DNA of 64,000 bases. It comes from Anaerolineae bacterium (GTDB lineage Bacteria; Chloroflexota; Anaerolineae; Anaerolineales; Villigracilaceae). Of this stretch, positions 3,534 through 32,515 are shown in pieces. Both the position numbers and the translations under genes were made by a program. The number at the start of each line of letters is the position of its first letter. The stretch's first letter is position 1. The stretch is from the NCBI GenBank assembly GCA_030123675.1, contig JASJYH010000002.1:1-64000 (forward strand), given 5' to 3'. The notes below the pieces were generated by a model. That model was given only the letters and a program-made list of their open reading frames with translations, ran no database searches and was not told where the DNA came from.

Positions 3534-3540
3534 ATGTTAT

Positions 3541-4422: not shown

Positions 4423-4583
4423 AAGGATATGTTTTCTTTAAGCCACGACTAAATTTAAACCAGGTATTTTCCGAAGACTAAAATAATCTGGAAAATTGCC
4501 ACAACCCGGATTAGGTCAATTCAGTATTGATGAGCGGAAGCTGATTTTTCTGTTTATTGGGCCTCTGTCATAAAAAATGTTTA

Positions 4584-5060: not shown

Positions 5061-5070
5061 CAGTTTTCCT

Positions 5071-11101: not shown

Positions 11102-12439
11102 ATGCTGATTTATAACGCAACTGTGATTACCTGGGGGAAACCTAATCAAATTCTGAAGAATTACGCAATAACCATAAAAAACGATCGCATCACTGAGATC
11201 GGACCATCCCCAGAGCTAAAAGAAAAATACTCTAATGCTGAAATTCTCGATGCACGCGGGCAACTTGTCATGCCAGGAAATATCTGCGCCCATACCCATT
11301 TCTATGGTATCTTCGCCCGGGGTATGGCAATTCCAGGTTCCGCGCCAAAAGATTTTCCAGACATATTAGAAAAGCTTTGGTGGCCACTTGATAAATCATT
11401 ACTCGAAGAGGACGTGCGCTATTCAACCCTCCCAAGCTTAGTCGATGCTATTAAACATGGCACCACCACTTTGATTGATCATCATGCCTCCCCAAATGCC
11501 ATAGATGGATCACTTGACATAATTGGTGAATCTGTAAAAAAGGCTGGCTTGCGTGCTTGTTTATGCTATGAAGTAACTGATCGAGATGGGCCGGAAAAAA
11601 TGAAAGCCGGAATCGCTGAAAATGTCCGCTTCATTAAACAAGAGAAGAGCCCGCTTCTGGCCGGGACGTTTGGCCTGCACGCTGGCCTTACGCTGTCAGA
11701 CTCAACCCTAGATTTGTGCCGCCAGTCCGCTCCTGATGGGACAGGCTTTCACATCCACACCGCCGAGTCGAGTGCAGATGAATGGGACAGCCTTGAGAAA
11801 TCGGGGTTGCGAGTGATCAACCGACTACAAAAACATGATTTGCTTGGACCAAAGACCATTACCGCTCACGGTGTTCACTTTGATGCCAAAGAAATAGAAA
11901 TCATCAAAAATACAGATACCTGGGTAAGCCATCAGCCCCGTTCGAACATGAATAACGCCGTTGGAGTTGCACCCGTTGAATCAATGCTTGAGATGGGAGT
12001 AAAGGTCTGTCTTGGCAATGATGGCTTCTCGAATGCGATGTGGGATGAATGGAAAACAACCTATTTAATGCATAAACTCTGGCATCAAGATCCGCGCCGA
12101 ATGAATGGATCTGATGTAGCCAAAATGGCGATTTATAACAACGCAGCATTGGCAAATGTTTATTTCCCAAAGGCCCCCATCGGAGTGTTAGAACCAGGTG
12201 CTTACGCCGACATTATATTCGTAGACTATCATGCTCCAACTCCACTTAATGATGGTAACCTACCTTGGCATATTATCTTCGGTTTCCAGCAAAGTATGGT
12301 AACAACCACGATTGTAGCTGGAAAGGTATTGATGCAGGATCGAGAACTGCTCACATTAGACGAAGCGGAAATCGCTGCAAAAGCAAGCAAACAGGCCATA
12401 AGCGTCTGGAAACGATATCAGGATCAATTTAATGAATGA
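11102..12439 (+). CDS. ssnA: SsnA-type amidohydrolase
   Basis: This 445-residue metal-dependent hydrolase has HTH metal ligands (H64, H66 in CAHTHFYG), the FARGM helix, HIHTAES, HGVHF and a catalytic Asp in LGNDGF. The pattern FARGM...LEKLWWPLDK is that of SsnA proteins, a group named for their occurrence with selenium-dependent molybdenum hydroxylase genes. The chemistry would be deamination or ring-opening hydrolysis of a purine-like compound; the substrate is unproven. The next gene, npdG, overlaps it by 8 bp. A xanthine-dehydrogenase-like enzyme lies 8 kb downstream. It could also be a general ATZ/TRZ deaminase. Confidence 0.75.
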   Translation: MLIYNATVITWGKPNQILKNYAITIKNDRITEIGPSPELKEKYSNAEILDARGQLVMPGNICAHTHFYGIFARGMAIPGSAPKDFPDILEKLWWPLDKSLLEEDVRYSTLPSLVDAIKHGTTTLIDHHASPNAIDGSLDIIGESVKKAGLRACLCYEVTDRDGPEKMKAGIAENVRFIKQEKSPLLAGTFGLHAGLTLSDSTLDLCRQSAPDGTGFHIHTAESSADEWDSLEKSGLRVINRLQKHDLLGPKTITAHGVHFDAKEIEIIKNTDTWVSHQPRSNMNNAVGVAPVESMLEMGVKVCLGNDGFSNAMWDEWKTTYLMHKLWHQDPRRMNGSDVAKMAIYNNAALANVYFPKAPIGVLEPGAYADIIFVDYHAPTPLNDGNLPWHIIFGFQQSMVTTTIVAGKVLMQDRELLTLDEAEIAAKASKQAISVWKRYQDQFNE

Positions 12440-13097
12440 ACCAAATAATCCAAAAATAGCAATCCTAGGTGGAACTGGAAAAGAAGGCAAAGGCCTAGCC
12501 TATCGTTGGTCAAAGGCCGGCTATCACATACTTATAGGGTCACGTACTGCTGATAAAGCTGTTGCGGCAGCAAAAGATATCTCCGATATGCTCCAAGGAC
12601 CGTCCACAATAGAAGGCAAAGTCAATTTGGATGCCGCTACTGATGCAGATATCGTCGTACTTACTGTCCCCTACACGGCCCATCAGGCTACTATTGAAAG
12701 TGTGAAATCTGCTGTAAAGGGAAAACTATTTATCGATGTTACTGTGCCAATCGTGCCACCAAATGTTGGCAAAGTGCAAATGCCTAAAGCTGGGTCAGCG
12801 GCGCAGGAAGCAGTTGAAATCCTCGGTGATGAGGTTAATGTCTGTGCTGCATTCCAGAATATCTCCTACGAATACTTGATGGGTGACGGAAATGTTGACT
12901 GTGATGTGCTTGTAACCGGAACAAATAAGGATGCCCGCACCGAAACGATAAAGTTAGTTGAAGCGGCGGGATTTATTGGTTGGGATAGCGGACCCATTGA
13001 GAACTCTGTAGTTGTTGAAGGATTAACCAGTGTGCTCATCGGTATCAATAAAAAATATGGCTCAACCCACGCTGGGATAAAGATCACTGGCGTATAA
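12432..13097 (+). CDS. npdG: NADPH-dependent F420 reductase
   Basis: This 221-residue protein has a Rossmann site (ILGGTGKEGKGLAYRW) and the NADP-preferring SRT loop near residue 37, matching the NpdG/Fno family. It passes hydride between NADPH and coenzyme F420 in the cytoplasm, supplying F420H2 for F420-dependent oxidoreductases such as the luciferase-like protein at 16.5 kb. It overlaps ssnA and heads the F420 biosynthesis block. Confidence 0.9.
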   Translation: MNEPNNPKIAILGGTGKEGKGLAYRWSKAGYHILIGSRTADKAVAAAKDISDMLQGPSTIEGKVNLDAATDADIVVLTVPYTAHQATIESVKSAVKGKLFIDVTVPIVPPNVGKVQMPKAGSAAQEAVEILGDEVNVCAAFQNISYEYLMGDGNVDCDVLVTGTNKDARTETIKLVEAAGFIGWDSGPIENSVVVEGLTSVLIGINKKYGSTHAGIKITGV

Positions 13098-13133: not shown

Positions 13134-13931
13134 ATGACACTTTCCCTTACTCCCCTGCAAAATTTTCCGATGATCCGCCAAGGAGACAACTTGGCGGATA
13201 TTATTCTTAAAGGAATGCAAAGCAACTCGATAGCCCTTCAAAATGAGGATGTTTTGGTAATTGCTCAAAAAATTGTGTCAAAATCCGAAGGGCGGCTTGT
13301 TAATTTATCATTAGTTACTCCCTCAAAAAAAGCCCAGGAACTTGCTCAACAGACAAATAAAGATGCTCGTGTTGTCGAACTCATATTAAGAGAAAGCAAT
13401 GCAATATTGCGTACAAAGACCGGTGTAATTATTTGTGAACATAAACTAGGTTTTGTATGTGCGAATGCAGGAATTGACCAATCCAATATCTTCCCCCACG
13501 AACCTTCTGATGGGCTTAAACCCTCCAGAAGGTTAAATAAGGAAGAATGGGCCTTGCTCCTTCCAAAAAATCCCGACCAATCAGCACATCGACTCCGGAA
13601 AAAGTTAAATGCATCAACCGGTACAAAAGTCGGAATACTCATAATTGACTCACACGGGCGTGCCTGGCGTGAGGGCACTATTGGAATTACAATTGGCCTC
13701 TCCGGAATTCCAGGAATCGTCGATCTACGAGGCAAGCCGGATCTCTCCAATATGCCCTTGCAAACCACAATTGTTGGTGTGGCAGATGAGCTAGCTGCCG
13801 GTGCAAGTCTAATGATGGGCCAAGCCGCGGAGGCCACCCCCGTTATCCATGTGCGCGGGTTCCCATATGAACCACGAGAAAGTTCTATAAAAGAACTTAT
13901 ACGCCCTAAGAAGGAAGATCTTTTTCGATGA
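13134..13931 (+). CDS. cofE: coenzyme F420-0:L-glutamate ligase
   Basis: CofE adds gamma-linked glutamates to F420-0 with GTP. Family motifs are LVIAQKIVSKSEGR, CANAGIDQSN, LLLPKNPDQSA and DSHGRAWREGTIGI. The 265-residue protein is a stand-alone CofE; the nitroreductase domain fused to it in actinobacterial FbiB is encoded separately two genes downstream. Between SNI and LLLP it carries about 20 extra residues (HEPSDGLKPSRRLNKEE) encoded by a near-perfect palindrome, where typical CofE has only a short loop. Confidence 0.92.
   Translation: MTLSLTPLQNFPMIRQGDNLADIILKGMQSNSIALQNEDVLVIAQKIVSKSEGRLVNLSLVTPSKKAQELAQQTNKDARVVELILRESNAILRTKTGVIICEHKLGFVCANAGIDQSNIFPHEPSDGLKPSRRLNKEEWALLLPKNPDQSAHRLRKKLNASTGTKVGILIIDSHGRAWREGTIGITIGLSGIPGIVDLRGKPDLSNMPLQTTIVGVADELAAGASLMMGQAAEATPVIHVRGFPYEPRESSIKELIRPKKEDLFR
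13501..13534. repeat. palindromic element inside cofE
   Basis: Arms AACCTTCTG and CAGAAGGTT are perfect over 9 bp, with GGG/CCC pairing again inside and a 6-base centre. It is in frame and adds residues to a surface loop of CofE. The symmetry and the extra protein sequence suggest an inserted REP-like element rather than a chance hairpin. Confidence 0.55.
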
Positions 13932-13999: not shown

Positions 14000-14389
14000 A
14001 TGAAACTGCCAAAAAAGTACCTTGACCTGTTTCTGGATGAAACCAAAGCACTTTTATACCTCGCTACCAGCATGCCCGATGGCTCTCCACAAGTTACGCC
14101 TGTCTGGTTTAATACTGACGACGATCACATATTGATAAACACCAACGAGGGTCGTGTCAAAGACATAAATATGAAAAACCGCCCAAAAGTAGCCATGGTG
14201 ATCCAAGACCCAAATGATCCATACCGCTATTTACAGATTCGAGGTGAGGTGCTTGAATTTACTCGTGAGGCTGCTGACGAGCACATAAACACACTTTCTC
14301 AAAAATATGATGGGAAACCCTGGATTCACACAGAAGGCCAAAAACGGATCACCTTCAAAATTAAGCCGGCTCATTTTGACCCCCTCTGA
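14000..14389 (+). CDS. PPOX-class F420-binding oxidoreductase (Rv1155-like)
   Basis: This 129-residue split-barrel flavin/F420-binding protein has the pattern LYLATSMPDGSPQVTPVWF followed by INTNEGRVKDINMKNRPKVA, the signature of the pyridoxamine-phosphate-oxidase-like F420-dependent group. Its place within the F420 cluster supports F420 rather than FMN. It is likely a reductase of unknown substrate, acting as a dimer in the cytoplasm. Confidence 0.82.
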   Translation: MKLPKKYLDLFLDETKALLYLATSMPDGSPQVTPVWFNTDDDHILINTNEGRVKDINMKNRPKVAMVIQDPNDPYRYLQIRGEVLEFTREAADEHINTLSQKYDGKPWIHTEGQKRITFKIKPAHFDPL

Positions 14390-14969
14390 CTTGCACCAGT
14401 TTCTAAGAACTCGAAGGTCGGTTCGGCGCTTCAAGTCGCAGCCCGTGCCTGCTACCGTAATTCGGGCAATTTTAGAGACCGCAACCCATTCCCCATCCGC
14501 GCACAATATGCAACCTTGGCGTTTCGCTGTCGTTGAAAATAAATCTGCGAAAGATAAGCTGGGTATAGCGCTGACAACGAAATTGCGGGCCGATATGACT
14601 ACTGCCCACTTACCACAATCCCAGATTGAGTCGCGCATATCTAGCTCACTTCTTCGTTTGGGCCAAGCGCCGGTTGTCATACTGCTTTGTAGGGATTTGA
14701 CTGCCGTCCGAGGCGCTGAGCTAGAAGAAGAATCAATGGCGGTTCAGTCAGTCGCCTCAGCTGGTTTGCAGTTGCTTCTGGCCGCACATGCTGAAGGACT
14801 GGCTGGAAACTGGATCTGTTGGCCACTCTATGCTCAGAATGCGGTCCGAGATGCCCTGAAATTACCAAACTCTTGGCAACCGCAAGCAATGTTTTTCTTG
14901 GGGTATCCTAATGAGGCACCCAAAGAAAAGACAGTCAAATCACTTGATGATGTCGCTATTTTCTTATGA
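14376..14969 (+). CDS. nitroreductase-family protein, FbiB C-terminal-domain type
   Basis: An FMN nitroreductase fold of about 197 residues: RTRRSVRRF near the N-terminus, SPSAHNMQPWRF, and a C-terminal GYPNEAPKEK loop. In mycobacteria the equivalent domain of FbiB reduces dehydro-F420-0, the product of the phosphoenolpyruvate route; some Chloroflexota have it as a separate protein, as here. I prefer the TTG at 14376, which overlaps the PPOX stop by 14 bp; the track start at 14307 would overlap by 83 bp. The stop overlaps the cofD start (ATGA). Confidence 0.75.
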   Translation: MTPSDLHQFLRTRRSVRRFKSQPVPATVIRAILETATHSPSAHNMQPWRFAVVENKSAKDKLGIALTTKLRADMTTAHLPQSQIESRISSSLLRLGQAPVVILLCRDLTAVRGAELEEESMAVQSVASAGLQLLLAAHAEGLAGNWICWPLYAQNAVRDALKLPNSWQPQAMFFLGYPNEAPKEKTVKSLDDVAIFL

Positions 14970-15886
14970 AAATTGTCGCTTTAGCAGGTGGTGTAGGGGG
15001 TGCAAAACTTGCACATGGATTGGCCCAAGTCCTTAATCCCGAAGACCTGACCATCGTTGTCAATACTGGCGACGACTTTGAACAATATGGCCTTTATATT
15101 TCACCAGACCTGGATACCGTCTGCTACACACTGGCAGACTTAGCCAATCAAGAAACCGGCTGGGGTCATAAAAATGAATCCTGGCTAGTTATGGAGCATG
15201 CTGTTCGGCTCGGTGGGCCAGATTGGTTCAAGTTGGGTGATAAGGATTTGGGCACTCACCTTGAACGAACCCGTCGCTTAAACAACGGACAACCCCTTTC
15301 AAAAATAACTCGCGATTTTTGTAAAGCTTGGAAGGTTCAACATACGATATTGCCAATGTCGGATCAACCGGTGCGCACAATTGTTGAAACGGTGGGCAAA
15401 GAAATCAGTTTTCAAGAATATTTTGTCCATCTCAAGTGTGAGCCCAAAGTAATTGGATTCCACTTTGAGGGCGCTGAAAGAGCGGAGGCAGCTCCTGGTG
15501 TAGTTGAAGCGATAGATTCAGCAGAGGCGGTTGTAATTTGCCCATCGAATCCTTGGGTTAGTATTGACCCGATTTTGGCGGTAGCAAATTTGAGGTCGGC
15601 AGTTGAAGCGAAACTCACAATAGCTGTATCCCCTATTATAGGCGGAAAGGCAGTCAAAGGCCCACTCGCGAAAATGTTTACAGAATTGGGAATTCAGCCC
15701 TCAGCCTTAGCGATCATTGAGCATTACCAGAACCTACTAAATGGTTTTGTTCTAGACAATATCGACCAAGATTTAACAAAAATGATAGGAATCCCTTCTA
15801 TAACCACCGATACACTGATGGATTCCTTAACAAAACGGGCGCAATTGGCACAGGCTATGCTACACTTTATGCGGAGACTATTATGA
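14966..15886 (+). CDS. cofD: F420 biosynthesis 2-phospho-L-lactate (or enolpyruvyl) transferase
   Basis: This 306-residue CofD/FbiA joins the activated three-carbon phosphate unit to FO to give F420-0 or dehydro-F420-0. Motifs are LAGGVGGAKLAHGL at the N-terminus, VNTGDDFEQYGLYISPDLDTV, the LGDKDLGTHLERT stretch, and CPSNPWVSIDPIL. It overlaps the genes on both sides by 4 bp, so the operon is tightly coupled. Confidence 0.93.
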   Translation: MKIVALAGGVGGAKLAHGLAQVLNPEDLTIVVNTGDDFEQYGLYISPDLDTVCYTLADLANQETGWGHKNESWLVMEHAVRLGGPDWFKLGDKDLGTHLERTRRLNNGQPLSKITRDFCKAWKVQHTILPMSDQPVRTIVETVGKEISFQEYFVHLKCEPKVIGFHFEGAERAEAAPGVVEAIDSAEAVVICPSNPWVSIDPILAVANLRSAVEAKLTIAVSPIIGGKAVKGPLAKMFTELGIQPSALAIIEHYQNLLNGFVLDNIDQDLTKMIGIPSITTDTLMDSLTKRAQLAQAMLHFMRRLL

Positions 15887-16524
15887 CAGTTTGGGCTATA
15901 GTGCCTGTTAAACCATTACGCCGCGGTAAATCACGATTGGCTGGCGTCCTTTCGGAAGACGAGCGAACACATCTCAACAAATTTTTATTGGATAATACCC
16001 TTAAAATTCTGTCGGGGTTAGACCAAATCGAGCAGGTCCTAGTCGTCAGCCGCGACCCGGCTGCACTCGCGCTTGCGCGTGAACATGAAGTTCGAACGGT
16101 TCGTGAGGCAGATGGCCCACCGAATTTGAATACCGCATTAAAACGAGCGACCGTAGTAGCCCAGGCATATGCATCAACTGGGGTTTTGGTACTTCCCGCG
16201 GATTTGCCGCTGATGACCCGTAATGACATATTGGTGTTACTCGATCGTGCGAGAGAATCCCCAGTCGTGGTAATCGCTCCTGATCGTCACGAAGAAGGAA
16301 CTAATGCGTTGTTGATTTCTCCGCCGGGATTGATCGAATACGATTTTGGTCCAGGTTCCTATCAGCGTCACTGCCAACACGCCAAAGTGGACGGCGTGAC
16401 TTTGGATGTGGTCAGATTACCTGCTCTTGCACTTGATTCAGACTTACCTGTCGATCTTGCGGCTATTCAGAATACAGAAGGTTGGAAGTTTGATGACCGC
16501 CCAATTCTGGAGGAGACACCATGA
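15883..16524 (+). CDS. cofC: 2-phospho-L-lactate/phosphoenolpyruvate guanylyltransferase
   Basis: CofC (FbiD) activates 2-phospholactate or PEP with GTP for CofD. The 213-residue protein shows an MobA-like nucleotidyltransferase start ([19 protein letters not shown]), LPADLPLM as metal site, and [13 protein letters not shown]. Its coupling to cofD and the nearby nitroreductase favours the PEP substrate, though residues that decide this cannot be judged by eye. Confidence 0.9.
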
Positions 16525-17522
16525 CGAAGCAGCGGGTTGCTCTTTATTTGCAAGATTCACACGATTTGCGGGATGGCTTGGATTACGCACGTTATGCTGA
16601 AGAAAAAGGATTTGAGGCGGTTTGGCAGGCAGAATCACGCCTTGTTCGGGATGCAATCGTACCGATGGCGGCGTATGCAGCTGTAACCGAAAATTTGAAG
16701 GTCGGTTCGGGTGTGATAAACAATTGGACCCGCAATATCGGTTTACTTGCTGCCACATTTTTAACATTGGACGATTTGGCCCCAAACCGGATTATCTGTG
16801 GAATAGGAGCCTGGTGGGATCCTTTGGCTGCCAATGTCGGAATTGAACGCAGAAAACCGATGCTTGCGATGAAGGAAACTATCGAAATACTCCGCCGCTT
16901 GCTTAATATGGAACGAGTCACTTTCCACGGCGAATTTCACCACGTAGATGGTATTGAACTGGATGTGGTCCATGGACGGCGTGAACCCCGAAATGTGCCG
17001 ATCATGATCGGCGCGACAGGTCCAAAAATGATGGAGATGACTGGTGAGATCGCTGATGGTGTTGTATTAAATTATTGCGTCCCACCAGAGTACAACGACC
17101 AAGCCTTAGAGATGCTTGAAAAGGGAACCAAGAAAGCTGGGCGCACAATTGAAGACATTGACCGCCCACAACTGATCGTCTGCTCGGTAGACAATGACCA
17201 TGATCAGGCAATAGAATATTCTAAGATATTGCTTTGCCAGTATCTGGCCCAACAACCCCACATCGCGAAAGCTTCTGGGGTTTCCAATAAAGTGATAGAA
17301 GACATCCAGTCAATATTAGGTTGGCCCGCTACCAAAGAACAGATCATGAAAGCCAAAGATCTTGTACCCGAGGAGTTAGTCCATCGCATAACTGCATCTG
17401 GTACCCCAGAAGAGGCCCTTGCAAAAGTTGAAGAATACAAAAAACGGGGCTGTACTTGTCCAATCTTGTATCCAGTGGGTGGAAATTTCAAACTACTAAT
17501 CGATACCTTCGCGCAGCAATAG
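16521..17522 (+). CDS. luciferase-like F420-dependent oxidoreductase
   Basis: This 333-residue TIM-barrel protein of the bacterial luciferase/Mer superfamily has [10 protein letters not shown] (the non-prolyl cis-peptide region), GIGAWWDP, and [25 protein letters not shown], a typical F420 phosphate-binding segment. It starts within the cofC stop (ATGA), so it belongs to the F420 operon. It probably transfers hydride between F420H2 and an organic substrate; a methylene-tetrahydromethanopterin reductase role is possible but not supported by nearby C1 genes. Confidence 0.83.
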
Positions 17523-19215: not shown

Positions 19216-19968
19216 ATGATTACTGCCTATCACAGACCAAAAACAATTCCAGAAGCGTTAGATTTACTAAAGCAGAATGATACCTTCCCGCTCGGCGGTG
19301 GCACGCTTCTTTCCCAGCTTAAATCTGATTCCATTGAAGTAGTCGATCTCCAGTCTCTAAATTTAGACACACTCAAAAAAAAGGGCAACTATGTAGTGGT
19401 TGGGGCCACAGTCACGCTACAACAAATTCTCAAATCTAGCCATACTCCTGAAGACTTGAAATCCGCACTGCAATTGGAAGCACCTTTAAACATCCGCAAT
19501 GCAGCCACGATCGCGGGCGCACTTGTCGCCGGAGATGGACGTTCTCCCTTTGTTACAGCTCTGCTGGCACTGGATGCCAAACTAACTACCCAACCAGATG
19601 ATGAACAAATTGAGATTGGTAACTTTCTGGCCACCCGAGACAAAGGGTCAATCCCAAATTTAATCTCTGCGATTACTCTTCCCACACATGCTGTTTTGGC
19701 TTTTGAGCACGTTGGCAGGACACCCAAGGATAAGCCAATCGTTTGTGCCGCATTGGCAAGTTGGCCTTCAGGACGATCTCGCTTGGCCTTGGGCGGCTAC
19801 GGGGTGGTTCCCTTACTCGCAATGGATGGGACTGAGCCCGAAGGGCTCGAATCTGCGGCTCGCAATGCTTTCAAGGAAGCCAAAGATGATTGGGCCAGTG
19901 CGGACTATCGCATGGATGTGGCAGCGACATTGGCAATGCGTTGTCTGGAAAAAATTCAAAGGGATTGA
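19216..19968 (+). CDS. molybdenum hydroxylase FAD-binding subunit
   Basis: This 250-residue subunit of the xanthine dehydrogenase/CO dehydrogenase medium-chain type has an N-terminal PLGGGTLLSQ flavin loop, then LNIRNAATIAGALVAGDGRSPFVTALLALDA for the second FAD loop, and the ALGGYG region. It would accept electrons from the Fe-S domain of the partner. Cys ligands of CoxM-type extra clusters are absent. It sits 11 nt before the large subunit. Confidence 0.87.
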   Translation: MITAYHRPKTIPEALDLLKQNDTFPLGGGTLLSQLKSDSIEVVDLQSLNLDTLKKKGNYVVVGATVTLQQILKSSHTPEDLKSALQLEAPLNIRNAATIAGALVAGDGRSPFVTALLALDAKLTTQPDDEQIEIGNFLATRDKGSIPNLISAITLPTHAVLAFEHVGRTPKDKPIVCAALASWPSGRSRLALGGYGVVPLLAMDGTEPEGLESAARNAFKEAKDDWASADYRMDVAATLAMRCLEKIQRD

Positions 19969-19979
19969 GGGTCGTAGAT

Positions 19980-22900
19980 ATGAATATCACTTTGACGATC
20001 AATAGCAAAGCATATGAGGCAGATTTTTCCCCAAACGAAACCTTACTCAAGACGTTGCGCAAGTTGGGATTCCACGGTGTGAAGTTCGGTGACGAGGCCG
20101 GACTATCTGGCGCGGACACCGTCCTATTGGATGGCAAACCGATCAATGCCGGATCAATGCTGACGGCCCAAGCCGAGGGGCATAAGATTGTCACAATTGA
20201 AGGCCTGGGCGAACACCCTGAACAAGGTTGGAAGAAAACCGATGGGTTGCACGCTCTCCAACAAGCATTTATAGAGACAGGTGCGGTCCAGTGCGGATAC
20301 TGTACACCTGGCCAAGTGTTGGCCTCACAAACATTATTAGAACAGAATCCCAATCCCAGCGAAGACGAAGTCCGAGAGGCCATATCCGGGGTCTTATGTC
20401 GCTGCACAGGGTATGTCAAACCTGTCCAAGCTGTACTGCGGGCAGCAGCCCAATTACGGGGAGAGGGGTTTGATCCCATCGGAGGTGCAGGACTTTTCGA
20501 TTGGCCAGTTGAAAATCCATCCACACCGTTAGGGGGTGAACCACTTTCAAACTCCCCTTCAATAGCTACCCAGGTTGCTCCGAAAATAATTGTTGCCCCT
20601 GAAACAAAAAAATGGAAAACGGTTGGCAAACCTGAGATTAAGGTGGATGCCATCAAACTAGTCCAAGGCAAGCCAGCCTTCGCCGCGGATATAGAAAAAC
20701 GGGGCATGTTGATTGCCAAAGTGTTGCACAGCCCCCATGCCCATGCGCGCATCAAAAACATTGATACAAGCAAAGCCAAAGCCATCCCAGGTGTGGTCGC
20801 GGTACTTACTTGGAAGGACATCCCACGTGTAGTCTACTCTACCGCCGGGCAATCCGATCCGATCCCCGGGCCGCTGGACACCTTTTCGCTCGATAACAAG
20901 GTCCGTTTTGTGGGCGACCGGGTGGCATTCGTCGCAGCCGAAACGGTGGAAATCGCTGATATGGCGCTCAGCAAGATAGAGGTCGAATATGAAGCGCTGA
21001 GTGCGATCTTGGACTCCGAAGATGCGATGAAACCGGACGCCATCCAAATCCACGACGAGCCTGAATACGTCAATTTCGCCGATTCAGACCCATCCCGAAA
21101 CTTGGCCGCCGAAATCCGGATAGATATCGGTGACGTGGAAAAAGGCTTCGCTGAGGCCGATCGGATTTTCGAAGGCGACTATGTAGTACCAAAAGTCCAG
21201 CAAGCACACATTGAGCCGCACGTGTGTGTGACCTATTGGGACGAGGATGACAGGTTGGTTATGCGCACCTCGACGCAGGTGCCGTTCCATGTCCGGCGCA
21301 TGTTAGCGCCAGTATTGGACTTACCTGTCAAGCGTATTCGGGTGATCAAGCCACGCATCGGCGGTGGATTCGGGGGGAAGCAAGAAGTGTTAATGGAAGA
21401 TGTGCCCGCCCACTTGACGATAGCAACCGGACGGCCAGTGATTTACGAATACACGCGCGAGGAAGAGTTTATCGCTGCGCGCTCCCGACATCCGATGAAA
21501 GTGCACATGAAGACCGGTGTCAAGAAGGACGGTACCATCACGGCCAACGAAATGGTTGTTCTCGCGGATACTGGCGCCAATGGCGCCCACGCCCTGACTG
21601 TGACCGGCAATACAGGCCATAAATCAATGGCGCTGTACGTCGGCGATGGCAAATATCGCAAATCTCCGAATATACGCTTCTATGCAGACGTCGTTTATAC
21701 CAATACGCCCCCATCCGGTGCATTTCGCGGGTATGGCGTACCTCAGGGATTTTGGCCGCTGGATCGTCACCTAGAGAAAATAACACGGGAGATGGGCTTC
21801 GACCCTATCGAATTCCGTCTAAAAAATGCCATCCGCCCAGGCGAGTATCATCCGTTCAGCAAGGCCTGGAACGAAGGCCGAGAGCCGAGACCAGAAATTG
21901 TCCACACGGTTGGGCTGGAGCAATGTGTGCAACAGGCCAAAGCAGCAATTGGTTGGGACCAAAAATTCAACAACGAAGATTGGCGAAATGGACCAACGCC
22001 TGCGGACAATGGACAAGGTCCCGAACTAGGCAAAGCATCGTCTGCCGTCCAGCGTCCATCGCCACTTCGTAAGGGCATCGGTCTTGCAACTGTAATGCAG
22101 GGCACCGCCATCCCCTACTTGGATATGGGCGGCGCATCCATCAAAATGAATGATGATGGCTCCTTCAATCTGTTGGTCGGCGCAACAGATTTGGGAACAG
22201 GCTCAGATACCGTTTTGGCGCAAATGGCTGCGGAGGTATTGGGTGTCCCCTTGGAAGATCTTATTTGTTACTCATCCGATACAGATTTTACACCCTTTGA
22301 TAAAGGGGCATATGCGTCTTCAACTACTTATATATCCGGAACTGCAGTAGTGCATGCGGCCGAAAAGGTTGCGGACCGGATAAAAGTTCGCGCGGCAAAA
22401 ATGTTAGGCGATATTGATTCCCAAGAAATTGAACTTCGGGATCGAAAAGCTTATGGTCCAGATGGAAAATTCATCACACTTTCTGAAGTCGCCATGGACA
22501 GCCTGCACCGAAATGATCAAGAGCAAATTATGGCAGTCGCATCGTATGTCTCTCCAGTTTCGCCGCCTCCTTTCGGGGCCCAATTTGCTGAGGTAACTGT
22601 AGATATAGAAACTGGTCAAGTAACCGTAGACCATCTCGTCATGGCGGTTGATTCAGGTGTGATTATCAACCCCTTAACCGCTTCAGGGCAGATCGAAGGC
22701 GGAATGACTCAAGCCTTAGGATATGCTGTTTGCGAAGAGATGCGCTACAATGAAAAAGGGGAAGCGCTTGAACGCGATTTGGACCGGTACCATATTTTCC
22801 GCGCCGATGAAATGCCGGAGCTGACCACAATTTTTGTGGAAACATTTGAGCCAAGCCATCCATTTGGAGTCAAAGCTGTTGCAGAAATTCCGATGGATGG

Positions 22901-23306: not shown

Positions 23307-26300
23307 ATGGTCACCAGTAAGCAGGCGAAAGAAGCTATTTGGGATAATGAAGCACACTTCAGACAAATTGCTGAGGCGGTTGATCATGTCTTCACTATTT
23401 CAGATGTCAAGACTCGGACAGTCCTTTATGTCAGCCCCGCCTATGAAAAGATATGGGGAAGGTCATTGGATGAGCTCTATCGAGATGGCACACAGTGGGA
23501 TGAGGGCATTCACCCGGACGACCGCCCGCGGGTCATATCAGCCTGGGATAAATTGATCAACAATGGCAGCCAATTTGATGAAGAATATCGTGTCATTCAT
23601 ACCGATGGCTCAATGCGCTGGGTTCGCGGTCAACAATACCCAGTTCATGATGAGGGCGGCCAGGTCAATCGAATTGCTGGCATCCTCCAAGACATAACTG
23701 AAAAGGTTGAAGCGCTGGAGGCCTTGCGCGAGAGTAAAGAGCGTTTCCGTCAAATTACCGAGGGGATTAATGATGTTTTTGTCGTAACTGATGAAAAGAC
23801 AAAAGATGTGATTTATGTTAGTCCGGCCTATGAAACAATCTGGGGACGGCCGGTGGAAGAGCTTTACAAAGATGTCCGGCAATGGGATGAGGGTATTCAC
23901 TCAGATGACCGTTTGGGGTTGGAAAATTTTTGGGAAAGAATGAACAAAGAAGGTTATTTCGAAGAGGAATACCGGGTAGTACGCCCGGATGGCACTATGA
24001 GTTGGTGCCAAACCCGACAATATCCGATACGTGACGAGAGTGGCAATATCATTCGCGCTGCAGGGATTGTCCAGGATATCACTGAGCGTAAACGGGTAGA
24101 AGATGAGTTGGAAAAAAGCCAGACTCTCTATCGTCAGGCAGAAGAAATGGGAAAACTAGGGCATTGGGAGTGGGACCATATAAAGGATAGGATGATTTCC
24201 TGCTCAGAGCAATATGCTCGGATTTATGAATTGACGGTAGACGAAGCAATAAATAATTTCACAAGCTCTGAAGCGATACTCAGACAGGTCCATCCAGATG
24301 ACCGAGCACAATATGAAAAATTAATAGATGCTTCAGAAGAACAACACAAAGGAATAGATCACGAATTAAGGATTATCACTCGTTCTGGCGACGTACGCTA
24401 TATTCATCTGCGCAGTGAGTTTGTACTTGATGAAAAAGGAAAAATCATCAGGTCCTTTGGGACAGAACAAGACATCACTGCACAAGCGCAGCAACAAGAG
24501 CAACTGCAAGAAAGCCAGACTAAACTTCGCGCTACTTTAAACTCCATCGGCGATGCCGTCATTTCCACAGACACCAATGGGTTTATCGTCAATATGAATC
24601 CGGTCGCCGAGGACCTGACCGGTTGGAAACTTTCAGATGCGCAAGGTAAAGCACTGACCAAGATCTTCAAAATCGTCAATGCTAAAACAAATAAACGAGC
24701 CGATAATCCCGTCAAACAGGTTCTTACAAGCGGGAAAATAATAGGCTTAGCGAATCATACTATTCTGATTGCAAAGAATGGAAATGAATTCCAAATTGCT
24801 GACTCAGCTTCTCCTATTAAGGATAGTCAGGGCACAATCATCGGCGTGGTTCTGGTCTTTCGGGATGTCACCGAAGACTATCGCGTACGGGAAGAATTAC
24901 AAGAAAGCGAGGCACGCTTTAAGCAAATTGCTGATGTTATTGAGGAGGCGTTCGTAATATCCGATATAAAGACCGTGGCTATCTTGTATGCCAGCCCAGC
25001 CTTCGAGAAGATATGGGGGCGACCCGTCAGTAAATTGTATGAAGATATTAAACACTGGAATGAAGGGATTCACCCTGATGATCGTCCGAAAACGAAGAAA
25101 GCCTGGAAGCGAATGATAAAGACCGGCGAGCGCTTTGATGAGCAATATCGAGTGATTCGGCCGGACGGGACTATCCGTTGGGTTCGCAGTGAGCACTACC
25201 CGATCTTTGATGAGAGTGGGAAGGTCTATCGGGTCGCGGAGGTTGTCCAAGATATTACTGAGCGCTTGGAGGCCGAGGAAGCACTGCGAGAGAGCGAGTC
25301 TCGCTTCAAGTTGCTTGCAAATGAAATTGATGATGTATTCGTTGTATCTGATACCTTGACTGACACTTTCCTTTATGTCAGCCCGGCATTCGAGAAAATT
25401 TGGGGCCGACCAGCAAATGAGATGTATGATGATCCTAGAAAATTAGACATTGGAATTCATCCCGATGATGTAAAGCATATCCAGGATGAATGGGCACGGA
25501 TGAAAAAGGACGGGAGACAGTATGAGAAGGAATTCAGAGTGGTACGCCCGGATGGCTCTATTCGCTGGATACGTGGGCGTTGGTTCCCGGTCCGCAACGA
25601 GAGCGGCCAAGTCTATCGCGTTGCAGAGATAAATCAAGACATTACCAACCAAAAAGAAACCGCACTTGCCTTAAGGGAAAGTGAGGAAAGATTTCAACAA
25701 CTTGCAGATAAGATCGAAGACGTATTCATTTTAACGGATGTTGATAAATGGATTATATTGTTTGCCAATCCGGCGTTTGAAAAGATTTGGGGACGCTCAG
25801 TACAAGACCTTTATGAAGATGGTGAAAAATATAACCGGGGAATTCACCCCGACGATCTAAAGCGCGTCCAAAAGGCATTTAGGGATGTAGCCCGGCGTGG
25901 AGCCTTACTCATGGACGAGGAATATCGCGTGATTCATACTGACGGATCAGAGCGTTGGGTTCGCTCCCGAGCCTACCCCATCCATAATGAGAATGGGAAG
26001 GTCTATCGCATGGCGGAGATCGTTCAAGATATCAATGCCCGCAAACAGGCGGAATTAAAGTTGCAAAGAAGTCAGGCTCTATATCGGCAGGCAGAACGCA
26101 TGGGCAAATTGGGTCATTGGGAATGGGACCATCTAAATAACCGGTTAGTTTCCTGCTCAGACCAGTTTGCGCGGATTTATGAGATGACTGTGGAAGAAGC
26201 ATTGAAATTTTTCTCACACAAAAGGTCGGAATTAAACGTTATTCATCCCGATGACCGGGAGCGATACGAGCAATACCTACATGATTCTGAGGAACAAGCG

Positions 26301-28682
26301 GTAGGAATTAATATTGAATTCAGGATTATCACTAAGTCGGGCAACCTGCGCCATGTTTATCAACAGAATGAGGTTGTTCTGAATGGAGAAGGTAAGATCA
26401 CCAGGTCTTTCGGGACAGAACAAGACATCAGCGCCCGCAAGCAGGCGGAAGAAGCATTAGTCCGTCGGGCCGAGGAATTGGCCGCATTATATAAGACCTC
26501 ACTGGAAATTGGCGCCCAAACTGATTTAAAAACTTTACTGAACACAATCATACACAGTGGAACCGACTTGGTGAACGCCTCAGCTGGAGGTATTTTGTTA
26601 TTGGAACCTGACGGAGAGTCACTCAAGCTGACAGCAGCATATAATCTGGTCAACCATCCCAAACACCTAATTCTTTACATGGGGGAAGGTGTAGCAGGCC
26701 GGGTCGCTGAGAGTGGTCAACCGCTAGCAATATCAGATTATCAAAATTGGGCCGGGCGTATTCCTGCCTTATCGGATGCAACCATACAACGAGTTGTATG
26801 TGTCCCTTTGAAACTTGGCCAAGACATCATCGGTGTATTAAGTGTATCGGATGATGTAAAAAATGATCCATTTAATGAGAACGATGTCCAGGTGCTCAGT
26901 TCGTTTGCTGCCCAAGCTGTAATTGCCATCGATAATGCACGGTCTTTTGAACGCATTCAACAGTCCACAAAAGAGATGACGATGCTATTCCATGGCAGCC
27001 AAACTCTCAGTAACGAATTACATGGTGTTGAAGACATCGCAAAAATTAGTGCCAATTTATTCATTGAAATGATCCCTACGTTCAGTAATGCTTATCAATA
27101 TCCTGAATGTGAAATATCTCTGTTTGATCCTGAGAAAAATACCCTGCGAGTTATAGCTTCATTTTCCTTAGAAGATGATGAAGTGACAATTCGCGAGGAT
27201 AAAGAAGAAATTGGCCATGTGTACTCTTGTGAGGGATACCCCGCCACCATGCACGCCCTAGAAAACCTGTTACCTCTGACTGTTCGTGCCAGTGATCCCA
27301 AAGCCGATCCGGCAGAATTAGCATTCTTGAAAGAACATGAAATGGCCTCTGTTGTGGCCTTGCCGTTGGTAGTTAAAGGAAAAGCCATTGGTCTGGTCGA
27401 ACTCAATAGCTATGATAAAGAGCTAAAACTAACCCAAGCAGAAATAAACCTGGCTATGACTCTTGCAAACCAGGCAGCGGTGGCTATAGAAAACGCGCTG
27501 GTATTTGAGGAGCTGAACCAAGCACAAAGTTACATCACAAACATCATCAATTCCATGCCATCCGTTTTGGTAGGTGTGGATGCTGATGGAAATATAACGC
27601 AATGGAACGATGAAGCACACCGAAAAACAGGACTATCAGCCAAACAAGCGTTCGGCCTTCCACTCGGTGATGCATTTCCGCGCCTAGAATATGAAATGGA
27701 TCGCGTACATAAAGCTATGAAGACGCTAGAAGTGCAATCGAATAACCATCGGGAATACGAAGTGGATGGCCATACTCATTACGAAGATATAACTGTATAT
27801 CCTTTGATTGCCGAGGGGATGTCTGGAGCAGTCATCCGCGTGGATGATGTTACGGAACAAGTCCGACTTGAAGAAATGATGATCCAAAGCGAGAAAATGC
27901 TCTCTGTTGGTGGATTGGCGGTTGGGATGGCCCACGAAATAAACAACCCCTTAGCTGGGATGGTACAAACTGCCAGTGTGGTTAAAAATCGGTTAAGTCA
28001 AAATATTCCAGCTAACAGAACTGCTGCCTTAAAAGCTGGCACAACAATAGAAGCAATCCGCGAGTATATGGAGAGCCGCGGAATTCCACGAATGCTGGAA
28101 GCAATCAACGAGTCTGGTGGCCGTGCAGGCAGCATCGTAGACAACATGCTTAGCTTTGCACGCCGGGGTAACACAGTAATCTCATCTATCGATATGCCAG
28201 AACTGCTTGAAATGGCCCTGGAATTAGCCGCCACTGACTACGATTTGAAAAAACAATATGATTTTAAAAACATCGAGATAGTAAAAGAATACGAAGCAGA
28301 CCTACCTTTGGTGCTATGTGAAGGGAACAAGATCCAGCAAGTGTTGTTGAATATCCTGCAAAATGGGGCCCAAGCTATGCAAGAGAATTTTAAGCTTGAG
28401 CCTGGCAAAACCCCACGCTTTATCCTACGGTTGGCAAAAGAAACAAAAAATGAGCAATTAAAAATAGAAATAGAGGATAACGGCATCGGCATGGATGAAT
28501 ATACTCGAAAAAGAGTGTTTGAACCTTTCTTTACAACCAAACCAGTCGGCGAAGGTACCGGCTTGGGATTAAGCGTATCCTATTTTATTGTTACGGAAAA
28601 TCACGGTGGCCAAATGGATGTGGAATCGGAACCTGGCAAAGGCACGACTTTCATTGTCCGCTTGCCGTTTGAGAAAGGTTAA
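23307..28682 (+). CDS. giant soluble sensor histidine kinase with nine PAS and two GAF domains
   Basis: The 1791-residue protein has no transmembrane segment. Eight PAS/PAC units (about 10-1050), most with EKIWGR...GIHPDD...EEYRVIRPDG...YPIxDESG...QDITE, are followed by two GAF domains (about 1055-1405), a ninth PAS (NSMPSVLVGVDADG), a phosphoacceptor helix with HEINNPLAGM, and a HATPase domain (DNGIGMDEYTRK, GTGLGLSVSY). Two PAS units are of a different kind (GKLGHWEWDH). The near-identical repeats point to tandem duplication. It probably senses internal redox or small-ligand cues and phosphorylates the receivers at 32.5-35.2 kb. Confidence 0.9.
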   Translation: MVTSKQAKEAIWDNEAHFRQIAEAVDHVFTISDVKTRTVLYVSPAYEKIWGRSLDELYRDGTQWDEGIHPDDRPRVISAWDKLINNGSQFDEEYRVIHTDGSMRWVRGQQYPVHDEGGQVNRIAGILQDITEKVEALEALRESKERFRQITEGINDVFVVTDEKTKDVIYVSPAYETIWGRPVEELYKDVRQWDEGIHSDDRLGLENFWERMNKEGYFEEEYRVVRPDGTMSWCQTRQYPIRDESGNIIRAAGIVQDITERKRVEDELEKSQTLYRQAEEMGKLGHWEWDHIKDRMISCSEQYARIYELTVDEAINNFTSSEAILRQVHPDDRAQYEKLIDASEEQHKGIDHELRIITRSGDVRYIHLRSEFVLDEKGKIIRSFGTEQDITAQAQQQEQLQESQTKLRATLNSIGDAVISTDTNGFIVNMNPVAEDLTGWKLSDAQGKALTKIFKIVNAKTNKRADNPVKQVLTSGKIIGLANHTILIAKNGNEFQIADSASPIKDSQGTIIGVVLVFRDVTEDYRVREELQESEARFKQIADVIEEAFVISDIKTVAILYASPAFEKIWGRPVSKLYEDIKHWNEGIHPDDRPKTKKAWKRMIKTGERFDEQYRVIRPDGTIRWVRSEHYPIFDESGKVYRVAEVVQDITERLEAEEALRESESRFKLLANEIDDVFVVSDTLTDTFLYVSPAFEKIWGRPANEMYDDPRKLDIGIHPDDVKHIQDEWARMKKDGRQYEKEFRVVRPDGSIRWIRGRWFPVRNESGQVYRVAEINQDITNQKETALALRESEERFQQLADKIEDVFILTDVDKWIILFANPAFEKIWGRSVQDLYEDGEKYNRGIHPDDLKRVQKAFRDVARRGALLMDEEYRVIHTDGSERWVRSRAYPIHNENGKVYRMAEIVQDINARKQAELKLQRSQALYRQAERMGKLGHWEWDHLNNRLVSCSDQFARIYEMTVEEALKFFSHKRSELNVIHPDDRERYEQYLHDSEEQAVGINIEFRIITKSGNLRHVYQQNEVVLNGEGKITRSFGTEQDISARKQAEEALVRRAEELAALYKTSLEIGAQTDLKTLLNTIIHSGTDLVNASAGGILLLEPDGESLKLTAAYNLVNHPKHLILYMGEGVAGRVAESGQPLAISDYQNWAGRIPALSDATIQRVVCVPLKLGQDIIGVLSVSDDVKNDPFNENDVQVLSSFAAQAVIAIDNARSFERIQQSTKEMTMLFHGSQTLSNELHGVEDIAKISANLFIEMIPTFSNAYQYPECEISLFDPEKNTLRVIASFSLEDDEVTIREDKEEIGHVYSCEGYPATMHALENLLPLTVRASDPKADPAELAFLKEHEMASVVALPLVVKGKAIGLVELNSYDKELKLTQAEINLAMTLANQAAVAIENALVFEELNQAQSYITNIINSMPSVLVGVDADGNITQWNDEAHRKTGLSAKQAFGLPLGDAFPRLEYEMDRVHKAMKTLEVQSNNHREYEVDGHTHYEDITVYPLIAEGMSGAVIRVDDVTEQVRLEEMMIQSEKMLSVGGLAVGMAHEINNPLAGMVQTASVVKNRLSQNIPANRTAALKAGTTIEAIREYMESRGIPRMLEAINESGGRAGSIVDNMLSFARRGNTVISSIDMPELLEMALELAATDYDLKKQYDFKNIEIVKEYEADLPLVLCEGNKIQQVLLNILQNGAQAMQENFKLEPGKTPRFILRLAKETKNEQLKIEIEDNGIGMDEYTRKRVFEPFFTTKPVGEGTGLGLSVSYFIVTENHGGQMDVESEPGKGTTFIVRLPFEKG

Positions 28683-28861
28683 GACGAGGAATAAAACCTT
28701 GAGACTCATTTTACTAGTCCTTGACATTTGTCTTACAACTTCAAGAAATGAAGTATATTAAATGTTAATAAATGCCCGATTATTAGATTGCTGTAAGTGA
28801 CGATGTTTGATTTCTAATTTTTCCTATATCGCCGCATAAGTTGTGCAAGAAGGAAGAGATT

Positions 28862-31800
28862 ATGAATAATAAGCGAGCCCTTCAAATATTTGGAAACCGC
28901 GGACATGATGGTGTCGCCAGACGACTTACCAGTAGTTGGCCTTGGTTGACAAGAGATAGGATGAGCAAACAAAAGACCGGTCGTCATCTCCCGGGGCAGA
29001 TCCTGTCAGCTCCTGTGCTTATTACCAGTCTCTTCACCGTTTCGATCTTCACTCAGATCATCATTGATGATAATCCTGCAAACTTCAGCTATCTACTTTC
29101 CTACCTCACTTTGGGCCTGATTCTGCCAAGTGTTTTGCTCACTTTAAACCATATTATTATCCTAGCGCTGATTGATATTGGGGGCGTGTTAATACTGCCA
29201 GGGATTCTCCCAGAAATAACATTCTTTGAAGTTATTCCACCGTTTGTATTTCTCTCACTTTCAATCGGTCTCGTATTGCTCACTGTAAACCAAAGGAACA
29301 AATCTAGGATAAATCGGAAGGCTGATTCGCGTAAGGGCGAAAGCGATTTTGGAGCAAATTCCGAAGGTCCAAATCAGACCGAACGTGCTTTGCAAGCAAG
29401 TGAGGCAAATTTGCGGGCCACGCTAAATTCTATAGGAGATGCGGTTATTTCTACTGACATCCAGGGAAAGATCGCCAACATGAATCCGGTGGCGGAACAA
29501 TTGACAGGCTGGAATCTGGCCGAGGCACAGGGCAAAGCGCTGACCAAAGTTTTCAAGATCGTCAACTCCCAAACAAAAAAACCGGCTGTTAACCCGGTCG
29601 GCAAAGTGCTCGAAAGTGGCAAATTTGTTGGCCTGGCCAACCACACCATGCTGATCGCCAAGGATGGGGCCGAATATCAGATTGCCGACTCGGCTGCGCC
29701 GATAATAAATGAGACTGGCGCTACTACAGGTGTGGTTCTGGTCTTCCGAGATGTGACCGAGGAGTATCGTATGCAGGAAGCTTTGCGTGAGAGTGAAGCG
29801 CGCTTCCAACAAATTAGTGAGGTGATTGAGGATGTGTTTCAGATATCGGAATTGAAGACAGGGGATATCCTGTTTGCCAACCCGGCTTTCGAGAAGATCT
29901 GGGGACGACCGGTGCAGGAGCTTTATGAGGATGGCGGGTTGTGGGACGAAGGTATTCACCCAGATGATGTCAAACGTATTCAGATAATCTGGGGGCGAAT
30001 GGTAGAACTGGGAAACAGTTATGATGAGGAATACCGGGTGATCCGCCCCGACGGCTCCATGCGCTGGGTCCGGGACCGAACGTACCCAATCCGCGATGAG
30101 AGTGGCCAGGTCTATCGCACGGTGGGGATTGCCCAAGACATCACTGAGCGTAAACTCTCAGAAGAAGCCCTGCTAAAAAACCAGGCTCTTTATCGCCAGG
30201 CGGAACAAATTGGCCATATGGGTTACTGGGAGTGGGACGAAGTAGAAGATGGGTTAATTGCCTGTTCGGAACAGTACGCCCATATTTTTGAAATGACCGT
30301 TGACGAAATCCTCGCTGTTACATCAAGTTCTGAATTGGACTCTGAGTTTATCCACGAGAATGATCGCGAGCGCTATAAACAAGTCATGGACACTAAGATT
30401 GCGCTTAAAGAAGGATGGAACCTTGAATACCAGATCATCACCCGGACAGGTAAGGTGGTTTACGTGCACGAGTTAGGAGAGCCTGTGTTTGATGAACATG
30501 GCATATTTGTTCGGTCTATTGGAACACTTCAGGACATTACTGAGAGTAAATTGGTGGAAGAAAAGTTGCTAAAAAGCCAGGCCCTCTTTCGCCAGGCGGA
30601 GCTCATGGGAAAAATAGGTCACTGGGAATGGGACTATCAAGATGACAGGATGGTTTCCTGCTCGGAACAGTTCGCCCGGATTTATGAGATGACTGTGGAC
30701 GAAGCGCTGAAATATTTCTCGAACAGTAAAGCTGTAGTGAGCTTAGTACTTCAGGAAGACCGGGAATGGTTCAATCAGTCCTATCAGGATTCTTTAGAAC
30801 AACGGAAAGGACATGAAATTGAATTCAGGTTAATCACCCACTCAGGTGCCATACGCCACATTCATTCAGTAAATGAGCGAGTGGTGAATGATCAAGGTGA
30901 AATTATCAGTGGCATCGGGACTATCCAGGACATCACCGAACGGGTAGAGGCCGAGGCGGCCTTGAAGGAGAGCGAAGTGCGCTTCCAACAACTCGCAGAG
31001 GCTGTTGATGAGGTATTCGTTATTTCTGACGTGAAGCAAAATTCTGTCATATACGCCAACCAAGCATATGAGCAGATTTGGGGAAGAACCTTGAAGGAGC
31101 TCTACGATGATAGCAATCAATGGGATGCGGCAATTCATCCAGATGATCTTCCGCAAACAAAAAAAGCATGGGCGCGCTTGATTGAGCATGGCGAACGCTA
31201 TGAGGAGGAATATCGGGTCATACGACCGGACGGCTCCCTCCGTTGGGTGCGCAGCAAACAAACCCCTGTGCTTAATGAAAGCGGAAAGATTTATCGCTTC
31301 GCTGGGATAGTCCAAGACATCACCGAGCGAGTACAGGCTGAAAAATACCTTTCCAACATCATCAATTCGATGCCCTCTGTACTTGTGGGAGTGGATTCTG
31401 ATGGCAAGATTACCCAATGGAATAGCGAGGCACAACGGGCCACAGGCTTGTTACCCGAGCAAGCTGTTGGACAGCCGCTCAACCAAGCGATTCCACGCTT
31501 AGCCTCAGAGATGGAACGGGTGCGAGAGGCCATGAAATTGAGGCAAGTGCGCACGGATCCGAGACGAGCATACAAGGAAGATGGCCAAACCCGTTATGAG
31601 GAAATAACGGTCTTCCCACTAATTGCCAACGGAGTTGAGGGTGCGGTTATCCGTGTGGACGATATCACCGAACAGGTACGCTTGGAAGAGTTAATGATTC
31701 AAAGTGAGAAGATGCTCTCTGTTGGTGGACTGGCGGCCGGTATGGCTCACGAAATCAATAATCCTTTGGCAGGCATGATGCAAACCGCCAATGTACTCAG

Positions 31801-32515
31801 CAATCGATTAAGTGAGGATCTTCCAGCCAACGAGAAAGCAGCGCAAGAGGCTGGCACTTCAATGGAAGCTATTCGCGCTTTTATGGAGAGTCGCGGTATT
31901 CCGCGCATGTTGGCAGCTATCAACGATTCGGGCCGACGGGTGGCAGAAATTGTGGACAACATGCTCAGCTTCGCTCGTAAAACCGATTCTTCCATTTCAT
32001 CGCATAATATGTCAAAGTTAATGGATAAAACTTTAGACCTAGCTGCTACCGATTATGATCTGAGAAAGCGGTATGATTTCAAGGTAATTGAAATTGTGAA
32101 AGAATACGAGGCAGACCTGCCCAAGGTACTCTGCGAATCCGCCAAGATACAGCAGGTGTTTTTGAACATCTTACGTAATGGTGCTCACGCTATGCAAGAC
32201 GCGGCCAATAATGATGAAGAAGGGCAGCGTCATGTGAAAAAATCGCGGATGTCGATCAGAATATCACATGAAAAGGAATCTGATATGCTGCGGATCGAGA
32301 TCGAAGATAACGGGCGCGGTATGGACGAGGCTACACGCAAACGAGTATTTGAACCATTTTTCACAACCAAATCAGTCGGCGTGGGTACAGGTCTGGGGTT
32401 GAGTGTTTCCTATTTCATCATCACCGAAAATCATGGCGGCCGACTGGATGTGGTCTCTGAACCAGGCAAAGGCTCAAATTTCATTATTCGCCTACCAGTT
32501 GATTTTAAGGAGTGA
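28862..32515 (+). CDS. membrane sensor histidine kinase with six PAS domains
   Basis: The 1217-residue kinase starts at ATG 28862, behind GGAAGAG; the track TTG at 28841 lacks this. Three or four hydrophobic helices near residues 45-145 are followed by six PAS units of the same two types as the neighbouring kinase, then HEINNPLAGM and a HATPase (DNGRGMDEATRK, GTGLGLSVSY). The last PAS plus kinase core is closely similar to that of the preceding gene, so one arose from the other. It is followed after 3 nt by a receiver gene. The 179-bp spacer before it holds a TTGACA with no matching -10. Confidence 0.88.
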   Translation: MNNKRALQIFGNRGHDGVARRLTSSWPWLTRDRMSKQKTGRHLPGQILSAPVLITSLFTVSIFTQIIIDDNPANFSYLLSYLTLGLILPSVLLTLNHIIILALIDIGGVLILPGILPEITFFEVIPPFVFLSLSIGLVLLTVNQRNKSRINRKADSRKGESDFGANSEGPNQTERALQASEANLRATLNSIGDAVISTDIQGKIANMNPVAEQLTGWNLAEAQGKALTKVFKIVNSQTKKPAVNPVGKVLESGKFVGLANHTMLIAKDGAEYQIADSAAPIINETGATTGVVLVFRDVTEEYRMQEALRESEARFQQISEVIEDVFQISELKTGDILFANPAFEKIWGRPVQELYEDGGLWDEGIHPDDVKRIQIIWGRMVELGNSYDEEYRVIRPDGSMRWVRDRTYPIRDESGQVYRTVGIAQDITERKLSEEALLKNQALYRQAEQIGHMGYWEWDEVEDGLIACSEQYAHIFEMTVDEILAVTSSSELDSEFIHENDRERYKQVMDTKIALKEGWNLEYQIITRTGKVVYVHELGEPVFDEHGIFVRSIGTLQDITESKLVEEKLLKSQALFRQAELMGKIGHWEWDYQDDRMVSCSEQFARIYEMTVDEALKYFSNSKAVVSLVLQEDREWFNQSYQDSLEQRKGHEIEFRLITHSGAIRHIHSVNERVVNDQGEIISGIGTIQDITERVEAEAALKESEVRFQQLAEAVDEVFVISDVKQNSVIYANQAYEQIWGRTLKELYDDSNQWDAAIHPDDLPQTKKAWARLIEHGERYEEEYRVIRPDGSLRWVRSKQTPVLNESGKIYRFAGIVQDITERVQAEKYLSNIINSMPSVLVGVDSDGKITQWNSEAQRATGLLPEQAVGQPLNQAIPRLASEMERVREAMKLRQVRTDPRRAYKEDGQTRYEEITVFPLIANGVEGAVIRVDDITEQVRLEELMIQSEKMLSVGGLAAGMAHEINNPLAGMMQTANVLSNRLSEDLPANEKAAQEAGTSMEAIRAFMESRGIPRMLAAINDSGRRVAEIVDNMLSFARKTDSSISSHNMSKLMDKTLDLAATDYDLRKRYDFKVIEIVKEYEADLPKVLCESAKIQQVFLNILRNGAHAMQDAANNDEEGQRHVKKSRMSIRISHEKESDMLRIEIEDNGRGMDEATRKRVFEPFFTTKSVGVGTGLGLSVSYFIITENHGGRLDVVSEPGKGSNFIIRLPVDFKE

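Follow-up and report, generated by a model that had tools for sequence, protein, structure and literature searches.

An XdhD-like molybdenum enzyme family of Anaerolineales lacks the ligands of its FAD-proximal iron-sulfur cluster

The textbook wiring of molybdenum hydroxylases runs from Mo through two [2Fe-2S] clusters to FAD, and once a cluster is lost it is no longer obvious how the metal receives its electrons. This question is posed by a gene in the 64,000-nucleotide stretch of Anaerolineae (Chloroflexota) DNA that was analysed here, hereafter the window. According to the standard naming, FeSII is the cluster nearest FAD and FeSI the one nearest Mo (PMC3864932); in these terms the window enzyme has lost FeSII and retained FeSI. 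The gene pair has the following features:

19216 to 19968, forward strand: YgfM-like flavin subunit of 250 aa with variant FAD loops, GGGTLL and TIAGALVAGDGRSPF (FAD_binding_5, 79 bits)
19980 (ATG) to 23009 (stop), forward strand: XdhD-like fused Fe-S/molybdopterin subunit of 1009 aa (open reading frame, profile matches, XdhD alignment)
20091 to 20153, forward strand: former ligand loop of FeSII (ferredoxin-type, FAD-proximal), with D38, S43, D46 and G58 replacing Cys
20292 to 20405, forward strand: intact FeSI ligands C105, C108, C140 and C142 (helical domain, Mo-proximal; Fer2_2)
21873 to 21875, forward strand: E632, which aligns with Glu606 of E. coli XdhD (83 of 83 in the family alignment; PMC12507026)

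The loop reads GVKFGDEAGLSGADTVLLDGKPINAGS, with D38 encoded at 20091-20093 and G58 at 20151-20153. A first-pass annotation of this DNA had described the four ferredoxin-type ligands as gone, the second cluster as complete and the usual relay as broken despite the presence of an FAD subunit, and we found the same on all these points. The Cys residues of the whole protein lie at positions 105, 108, 140, 142, 416, 649, 763 and 918; as the first of them is C105, no substitute ligand is available inside the ferredoxin domain. Judging from these residues, FeSII is almost certainly absent. The protein otherwise carries the domains of the xanthine oxidase family (Fer2_2 helical domain, 98 bits; MoCoBD_1, 255; MoCoBD_2, 240; a/b hammerhead, 96), including E969, the active-site Glu of the GxKxxxE motif, which is present in 83 of 83 aligned family members. 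Membership of that family goes with ligands for two [2Fe-2S] clusters, and here only the helical-domain cluster has them. A fold model of the Fe-S domain was of low confidence (pLDDT 67, TM about 0.45 to Fe-S subunits).

The loss is not peculiar to this genome. A search of a genome collection returned 80 relatives, 71-79% identical and nearly all from Anaerolineales assemblies. Of these, about 75 share the replaced motif with the window enzyme, and the normal motif is present in three (L078, L081, L082). Genomes added from across the phylum brought the fused sequences to 128, and the window family aligned within them comprises 83. No FeSII ligand is found at the loop in any of these: positions 38 and 46 are Asp and position 43 is Ser or Thr in all 83, while position 58 is G, A, S or V. 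Each FeSI Cys is kept in 81-83 of them. More than 80 related species share the loss of FeSII as a fixed trait and, since the 83 members come from independent assemblies, a sequence artefact, which the annotation had named as a way for its claim to fail, is ruled out. The dN/dS of the loop (residues 30-62) is 0.098, compared with 0.080 for the helical domain and 0.102 for the Mo domain; a value about 0.10 and similar to that of the Mo domain indicates that the protein is maintained and not decaying.

An intact Fe-S subunit encoded elsewhere would have been another simple way out. The genome holds three Mo subunits, three Fe-S (Fer2_2) subunits and three FAD subunits, in a 1:1:1 ratio, and the other Fe-S and FAD genes fit other Mo subunits. 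Behind the fused FAD/Fe-S gene (L167) its contig breaks off in the first part of a Mo gene of its own, and a matching partial Mo gene opens contig C144; locus L171 shows this gene order complete. The CoxM/CoxS-type pair (L169) then falls to the one Mo subunit still without partners, on contig C151, where the flanking genes are cut off by the contig end. Within the limits of the assembly, no orphan Fe-S subunit is available to pair with the window enzyme, so that this second way to refute the annotated loss found no support in the genome. Decay of the flavin subunit was also rejected, because this protein is strongly conserved among 47 sequences. Its model (pLDDT 87.6) matches the flavin subunits of CO dehydrogenase and XDH with TM about 0.77, and its FAD loops are unlike those of XdhB and partly common to cluster-intact sisters. 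Eight loci (L111-L115, L077, L078 and L081) also carry a fused FAD and Fe-S protein of about 480 aa after xdhD and a YqeB-like gene.

Cluster-intact relatives within Anaerolineales (L078, L081, L082, L111-L117), which have all eight Cys and are 70-75% identical to the window enzyme, allow a direct comparison; for L078, L081, L082 and L111-L115 the identity is about 73-75%. All 1009 residues were compared between 83 cluster-less sequences and 12 intact close relatives. A position counted as separating if a single residue made up at least 90% of one group and the overlap in the other group was no more than 10%. Four positions, 38, 42, 46 and 58, are the only ones of this kind; position 43 is S or T in cluster-less versus C in intact sequences. 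In this comparison the loss is not accompanied by any newly gained redox residue, be it Cys, Tyr, Trp or another, and compensation elsewhere in the enzyme was rejected.

Regarding the identity of the enzyme, the NCBIfam families that match best are TIGR03313 (Mo subunit) and TIGR03312 (flavin subunit), and the fused Fe-S and Mo chain adjoining a YgfM-type flavin subunit is the TIGR03313-type arrangement. Identity to E. coli XdhD is 35% over a 1036-column alignment. A DLGTG loop replaces GQG in the window family, and both this loop and the equivalent of Glu606, a residue proposed to orient urate in E. coli XdhD (PMC12507026), are conserved in 83 of 83; among the XdhD-like proteins examined, the Glu is lacking only in the Shinella outgroup and in the most distant of the intact groups. 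Li et al. 2025 reported that E. coli XdhD-YgfM reduces urate to yanthine with NADH, giving no rate and, in the main text, no control lacking NADH (PMC12507026). The window enzyme is probably an XdhD-type oxopurine reductase, in a group of uncultured anaerobes, although neither profile reaches its cut-off (690 bits against 1102, and 72 against 241). Its neighbourhood in the window includes:

11102 to 12439, forward strand: SsnA aminohydrolase, marker of reductive urate degradation (TIGR03314, 515 bits, cut-off 455.5)
12432 to 13097, forward strand: NpdG, F420:NADP reductase (TIGR01915, 186 bits, above cut-off)
13134 to 13931, forward strand: CofE, F420 glutamate ligase (TIGR01916, 257 bits, above cut-off)
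14000 to 14389, forward strand: F420-dependent PPOX-class oxidoreductase (TIGR03618, above cut-off)
14966 to 15886, forward strand: CofD (TIGR01819, 316 bits, above cut-off)
15883 to 16524, forward strand: CofC (TIGR03552, 154 bits, above cut-off)
16521 to 17522, forward strand: luciferase-family (F420-type) reductase (LLM), candidate yanthine reductase (PF00296, 224 bits)
39359 to 40150, forward strand: XdhC/YqeB-type Mo-hydroxylase maturation factor

SsnA, the YgfM-like flavin subunit and the F420/luciferase-family reductase form a gene set conserved across Anaerolineales. The order SsnA, NpdG, CofE, CofD, CofC, LLM, (thioesterase), flavin subunit, XdhD is conserved in the cluster-intact L111-L117 and largely kept in the cluster-less window, L105, L108 and L109; the flavin gene lies a few kb away from xdhD in many cluster-less members. 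The LLM gene is 76-85% identical among the conserved operons, and of the 20 genomes tested for SsnA, 18 have a match that passes the cut-off. An F420/luciferase-family enzyme has been proposed as the yanthine reductase of Chloroflexota (PMC12507026). In this sense, the window gene set is consistent with the published reductive uric-acid pathway (PMC12507026), even though YgfK is absent from the genome (best match 185 bits against a cut-off of 835) and the 204-contig assembly gave no clear match to UacY or to YgeX, the latter with a weak match only. Homologues of YgeY (40%) and HyuA (40%, split over two contigs) are encoded elsewhere in that assembly. Since cluster-intact sisters L111-L117 share the F420/SsnA operon and flavin subunit with the window and, unlike it, have eight Cys, a tie between the loss of FeSII and the gain of the module was rejected. 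The window also encodes an aldehyde ferredoxin oxidoreductase-like protein of the tungsten enzyme type (44854-46674, reverse strand; partial family match) and, directly 3' of the enzyme, two very long sensors with many tandem PAS domains and C-terminal histidine kinases (23307-28682 and 28841-32515).

How often the clusters were lost was read from a maximum-likelihood tree of the Mo domain alone, which leaves the trait itself out. As the tree is of a quick type and has some long branches, the loss counts are minimal estimates: at least three for FeSII ligands (window clade; L123-L129; E. coli) and at least four for FeSI ligands (L070 with L080; L121; L123-L129; E. coli). A single clade of all FeSII-less sequences was rejected (p-AU 3e-127; 9e-32 without E. 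coli), as was one of FeSI-less sequences (p-AU 1e-56). In L121 (G192), the XdhD-like reading frame at 2481-5441 on the reverse strand keeps FeSII intact and has its four FeSI ligands replaced by S, D, S and E, so both orders of loss occur. Within the window clade, L070 and L080 have also lost three of the four FeSI Cys (QSGYC...LDRETGY); the FeSI replacements are alike between lineages (QSGY...LDRETGY or LSRETGY). E. coli K-12 XdhD (L095:21317-24187) has no Cys at any of the eight ligand positions (DADS/SNSD), and the Cetobacterium XdhD, 45% identical to it and encoded in a complete urate gene cluster, retains all eight. At two loci with no complete ligand set for either cluster, L125 and L127, the gene immediately upstream is UacX/dihydroorotate-dehydrogenase-like, and the neighbourhood showed no gene for a flavin subunit.

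Counting FeSII and FeSI ligands, the losses are graded (0+4, 0+1, 0+0). The phylogeny with ligand mapping that the first-pass annotation had suggested thus recovers gradation, together with separate origins and both orders. The stepwise trend that it had drawn holds inside the window clade (0+4, 0+1) and breaks down as a line leading to E. coli XdhD, with which a shared FeSII loss is rejected by the Mo-domain tree and the p-AU test. The E. coli protein had been called ligand-poor, which is right in direction and understates its zero of eight ligands.

Since the gene set matches the urate-reduction pathway (PMC12507026), electrons in the window enzyme would most likely flow inward, to Mo. That they must leave by another way, as annotated, is probably wrong in direction, given that the characterised family member is a urate reductase (PMC12507026). 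We favour, with a rough probability of 0.4, an XdhD-type urate reductase in which electrons jump directly from flavin to FeSI. The enzyme would serve an F420-linked reductive uric-acid module as its urate (purine) reductase, with the YgfM-like flavin subunit encoded next to it as partner. The enzyme's N-terminal ferredoxin domain would persist as a scaffold devoid of a [2Fe-2S] cluster. Electrons would go from the reduced flavin over the empty FeSII position to FeSI and from there to Mo, at which urate would lose its C6 oxo group. Such a long flavin-FeSI step may be slow and still tolerable for a slow catabolic reductase. As a general rule of tunnelling distances and rates, rather than a calculation for this enzyme, a gap of 18-20 Å still permits tens of electrons per second. 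The remainder of the relay is kept, in the FeSI ligands, the helical domain under the lowest of the three dN/dS values and the conserved flavin subunit, and the four separating positions leave no sign of compensating residues. The alternative annotated earlier, an FAD placed closer, is not directly supported: cluster-intact sisters use the same type of flavin subunit. Against the direct jump, L070 and L080 also lack FeSI, and L080 retains a flavin subunit that a flavin-FeSI jump does not explain. For fully cluster-less enzymes this reading fails, and for those also lacking FeSI, as in E. coli, a route without clusters would have to exist.

Following closely behind, and on balance unlikely, is a bypass: the flavin and Fe-S relay would not be obligatory in XdhD enzymes, and a donor such as reduced flavin, an F420H2 system or ferredoxin would deliver electrons at or near the Mo site, FeSI being kept for structure in the window clade. 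With a donor acting there, both clusters become dispensable and can be lost piecemeal, which suits the repeated, independent loss of either or both in both orders and the cluster-less L125 and L127 with no flavin-subunit gene nearby. E. coli XdhD is reported to reduce urate with NADH despite lacking every ligand (PMC12507026), and in aldehyde oxidase small acceptors exchange electrons directly at Moco (PMC5531472). If the E. coli activity is right, a cluster-free route exists in the family and the window enzyme could use the same. However, the window clade shows strong conservation of both the flavin subunit and the FeSI ligands, and no donor protein was identified. More broadly, it is possible, and we say so tentatively, that a branch of the xanthine oxidase family reduces oxopurines at Mo without a working Fe-S relay, by a route undescribed for the family; cluster loss would then have recurred because the relay became unnecessary.

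An improbable third reading is a redox-neutral transhydroxylase, in which Mo moves oxygen between purines, for example xanthine to urate while urate goes to yanthine. Transhydroxylation needs no external electrons, so the relay would decay and every cluster would be dispensable, in line with the recurrent losses. Such chemistry has a precedent in a Mo enzyme from a different family, the pyrogallol-phloroglucinol transhydroxylase. Nevertheless, the window clade still has FeSI, and yanthine was formed by the E. coli enzyme from urate and NADH alone, albeit with no NADH-free control listed in the main text (PMC12507026). Still less probable is a non-standard site in which D38, D46 and S/T43 would hold another kind of metal or a cluster with oxygen ligands. 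The invariance of these residues would suit it, as would the independent presence of Asp at ligand positions 1 and 3 in E. coli XdhD; however, the corresponding residues in further lineages without the cluster are S,T,A,D or S,S,G,E, so that no ligand set is shared, position 58 varies, and the fold model is too weak to probe the pocket. Finally, a sequence error, pseudogene or dying enzyme can be set aside, because the single frameshift in the ligand stretch (the outlier L057, one of 80 fetched loci) stands against the same motif in more than 80 species, a gene-wide dN/dS of about 0.1 and conserved active-site residues.

The enzyme kind and the reductive urate pathway are already known. In one open-access, partial literature collection we found no paper mentioning the missing XdhD ligands or repeated loss of relay clusters. 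The family offers natural 4+4, 0+4, 4+0, 0+1 and 0+0 versions and close sisters that differ mainly in ligands, which is a ready-made experiment for each cluster. This bears on uric acid reduction by gut and environmental bacteria: the E. coli enzyme of the urate-lowering work has no ligand of either cluster, and the physiological electron donor of a Clostridium enzyme has been called an open question (PMC12990295).

Among known systems, E. coli XdhD-YgfM resembles the window enzyme in its fused Fe-S/Mo chain and short flavin subunit, nearby SsnA and YqeB-type maturase, DLGTG loop, Glu606 and absent ferredoxin-type ligands; it differs in lacking the FeSI ligands too, in adjoining YgfK instead of F420 genes and in the independent origin of its ligand loss. 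Xanthine dehydrogenase and CO dehydrogenase, of the xanthine oxidase family, have the same domains, as does 4-hydroxybenzoyl-CoA reductase, a reductive member and the best match among solved structures (1rm6). To our knowledge, the solved structures of these three enzymes always keep both [2Fe-2S] clusters. The aldehyde oxidoreductase of Desulfovibrio (MOP, 1sij) likewise combines a fused Fe-S/Mo chain with a shortened relay, but it has both clusters and no FAD, whereas the window enzyme has an FAD subunit and no FAD-proximal cluster.
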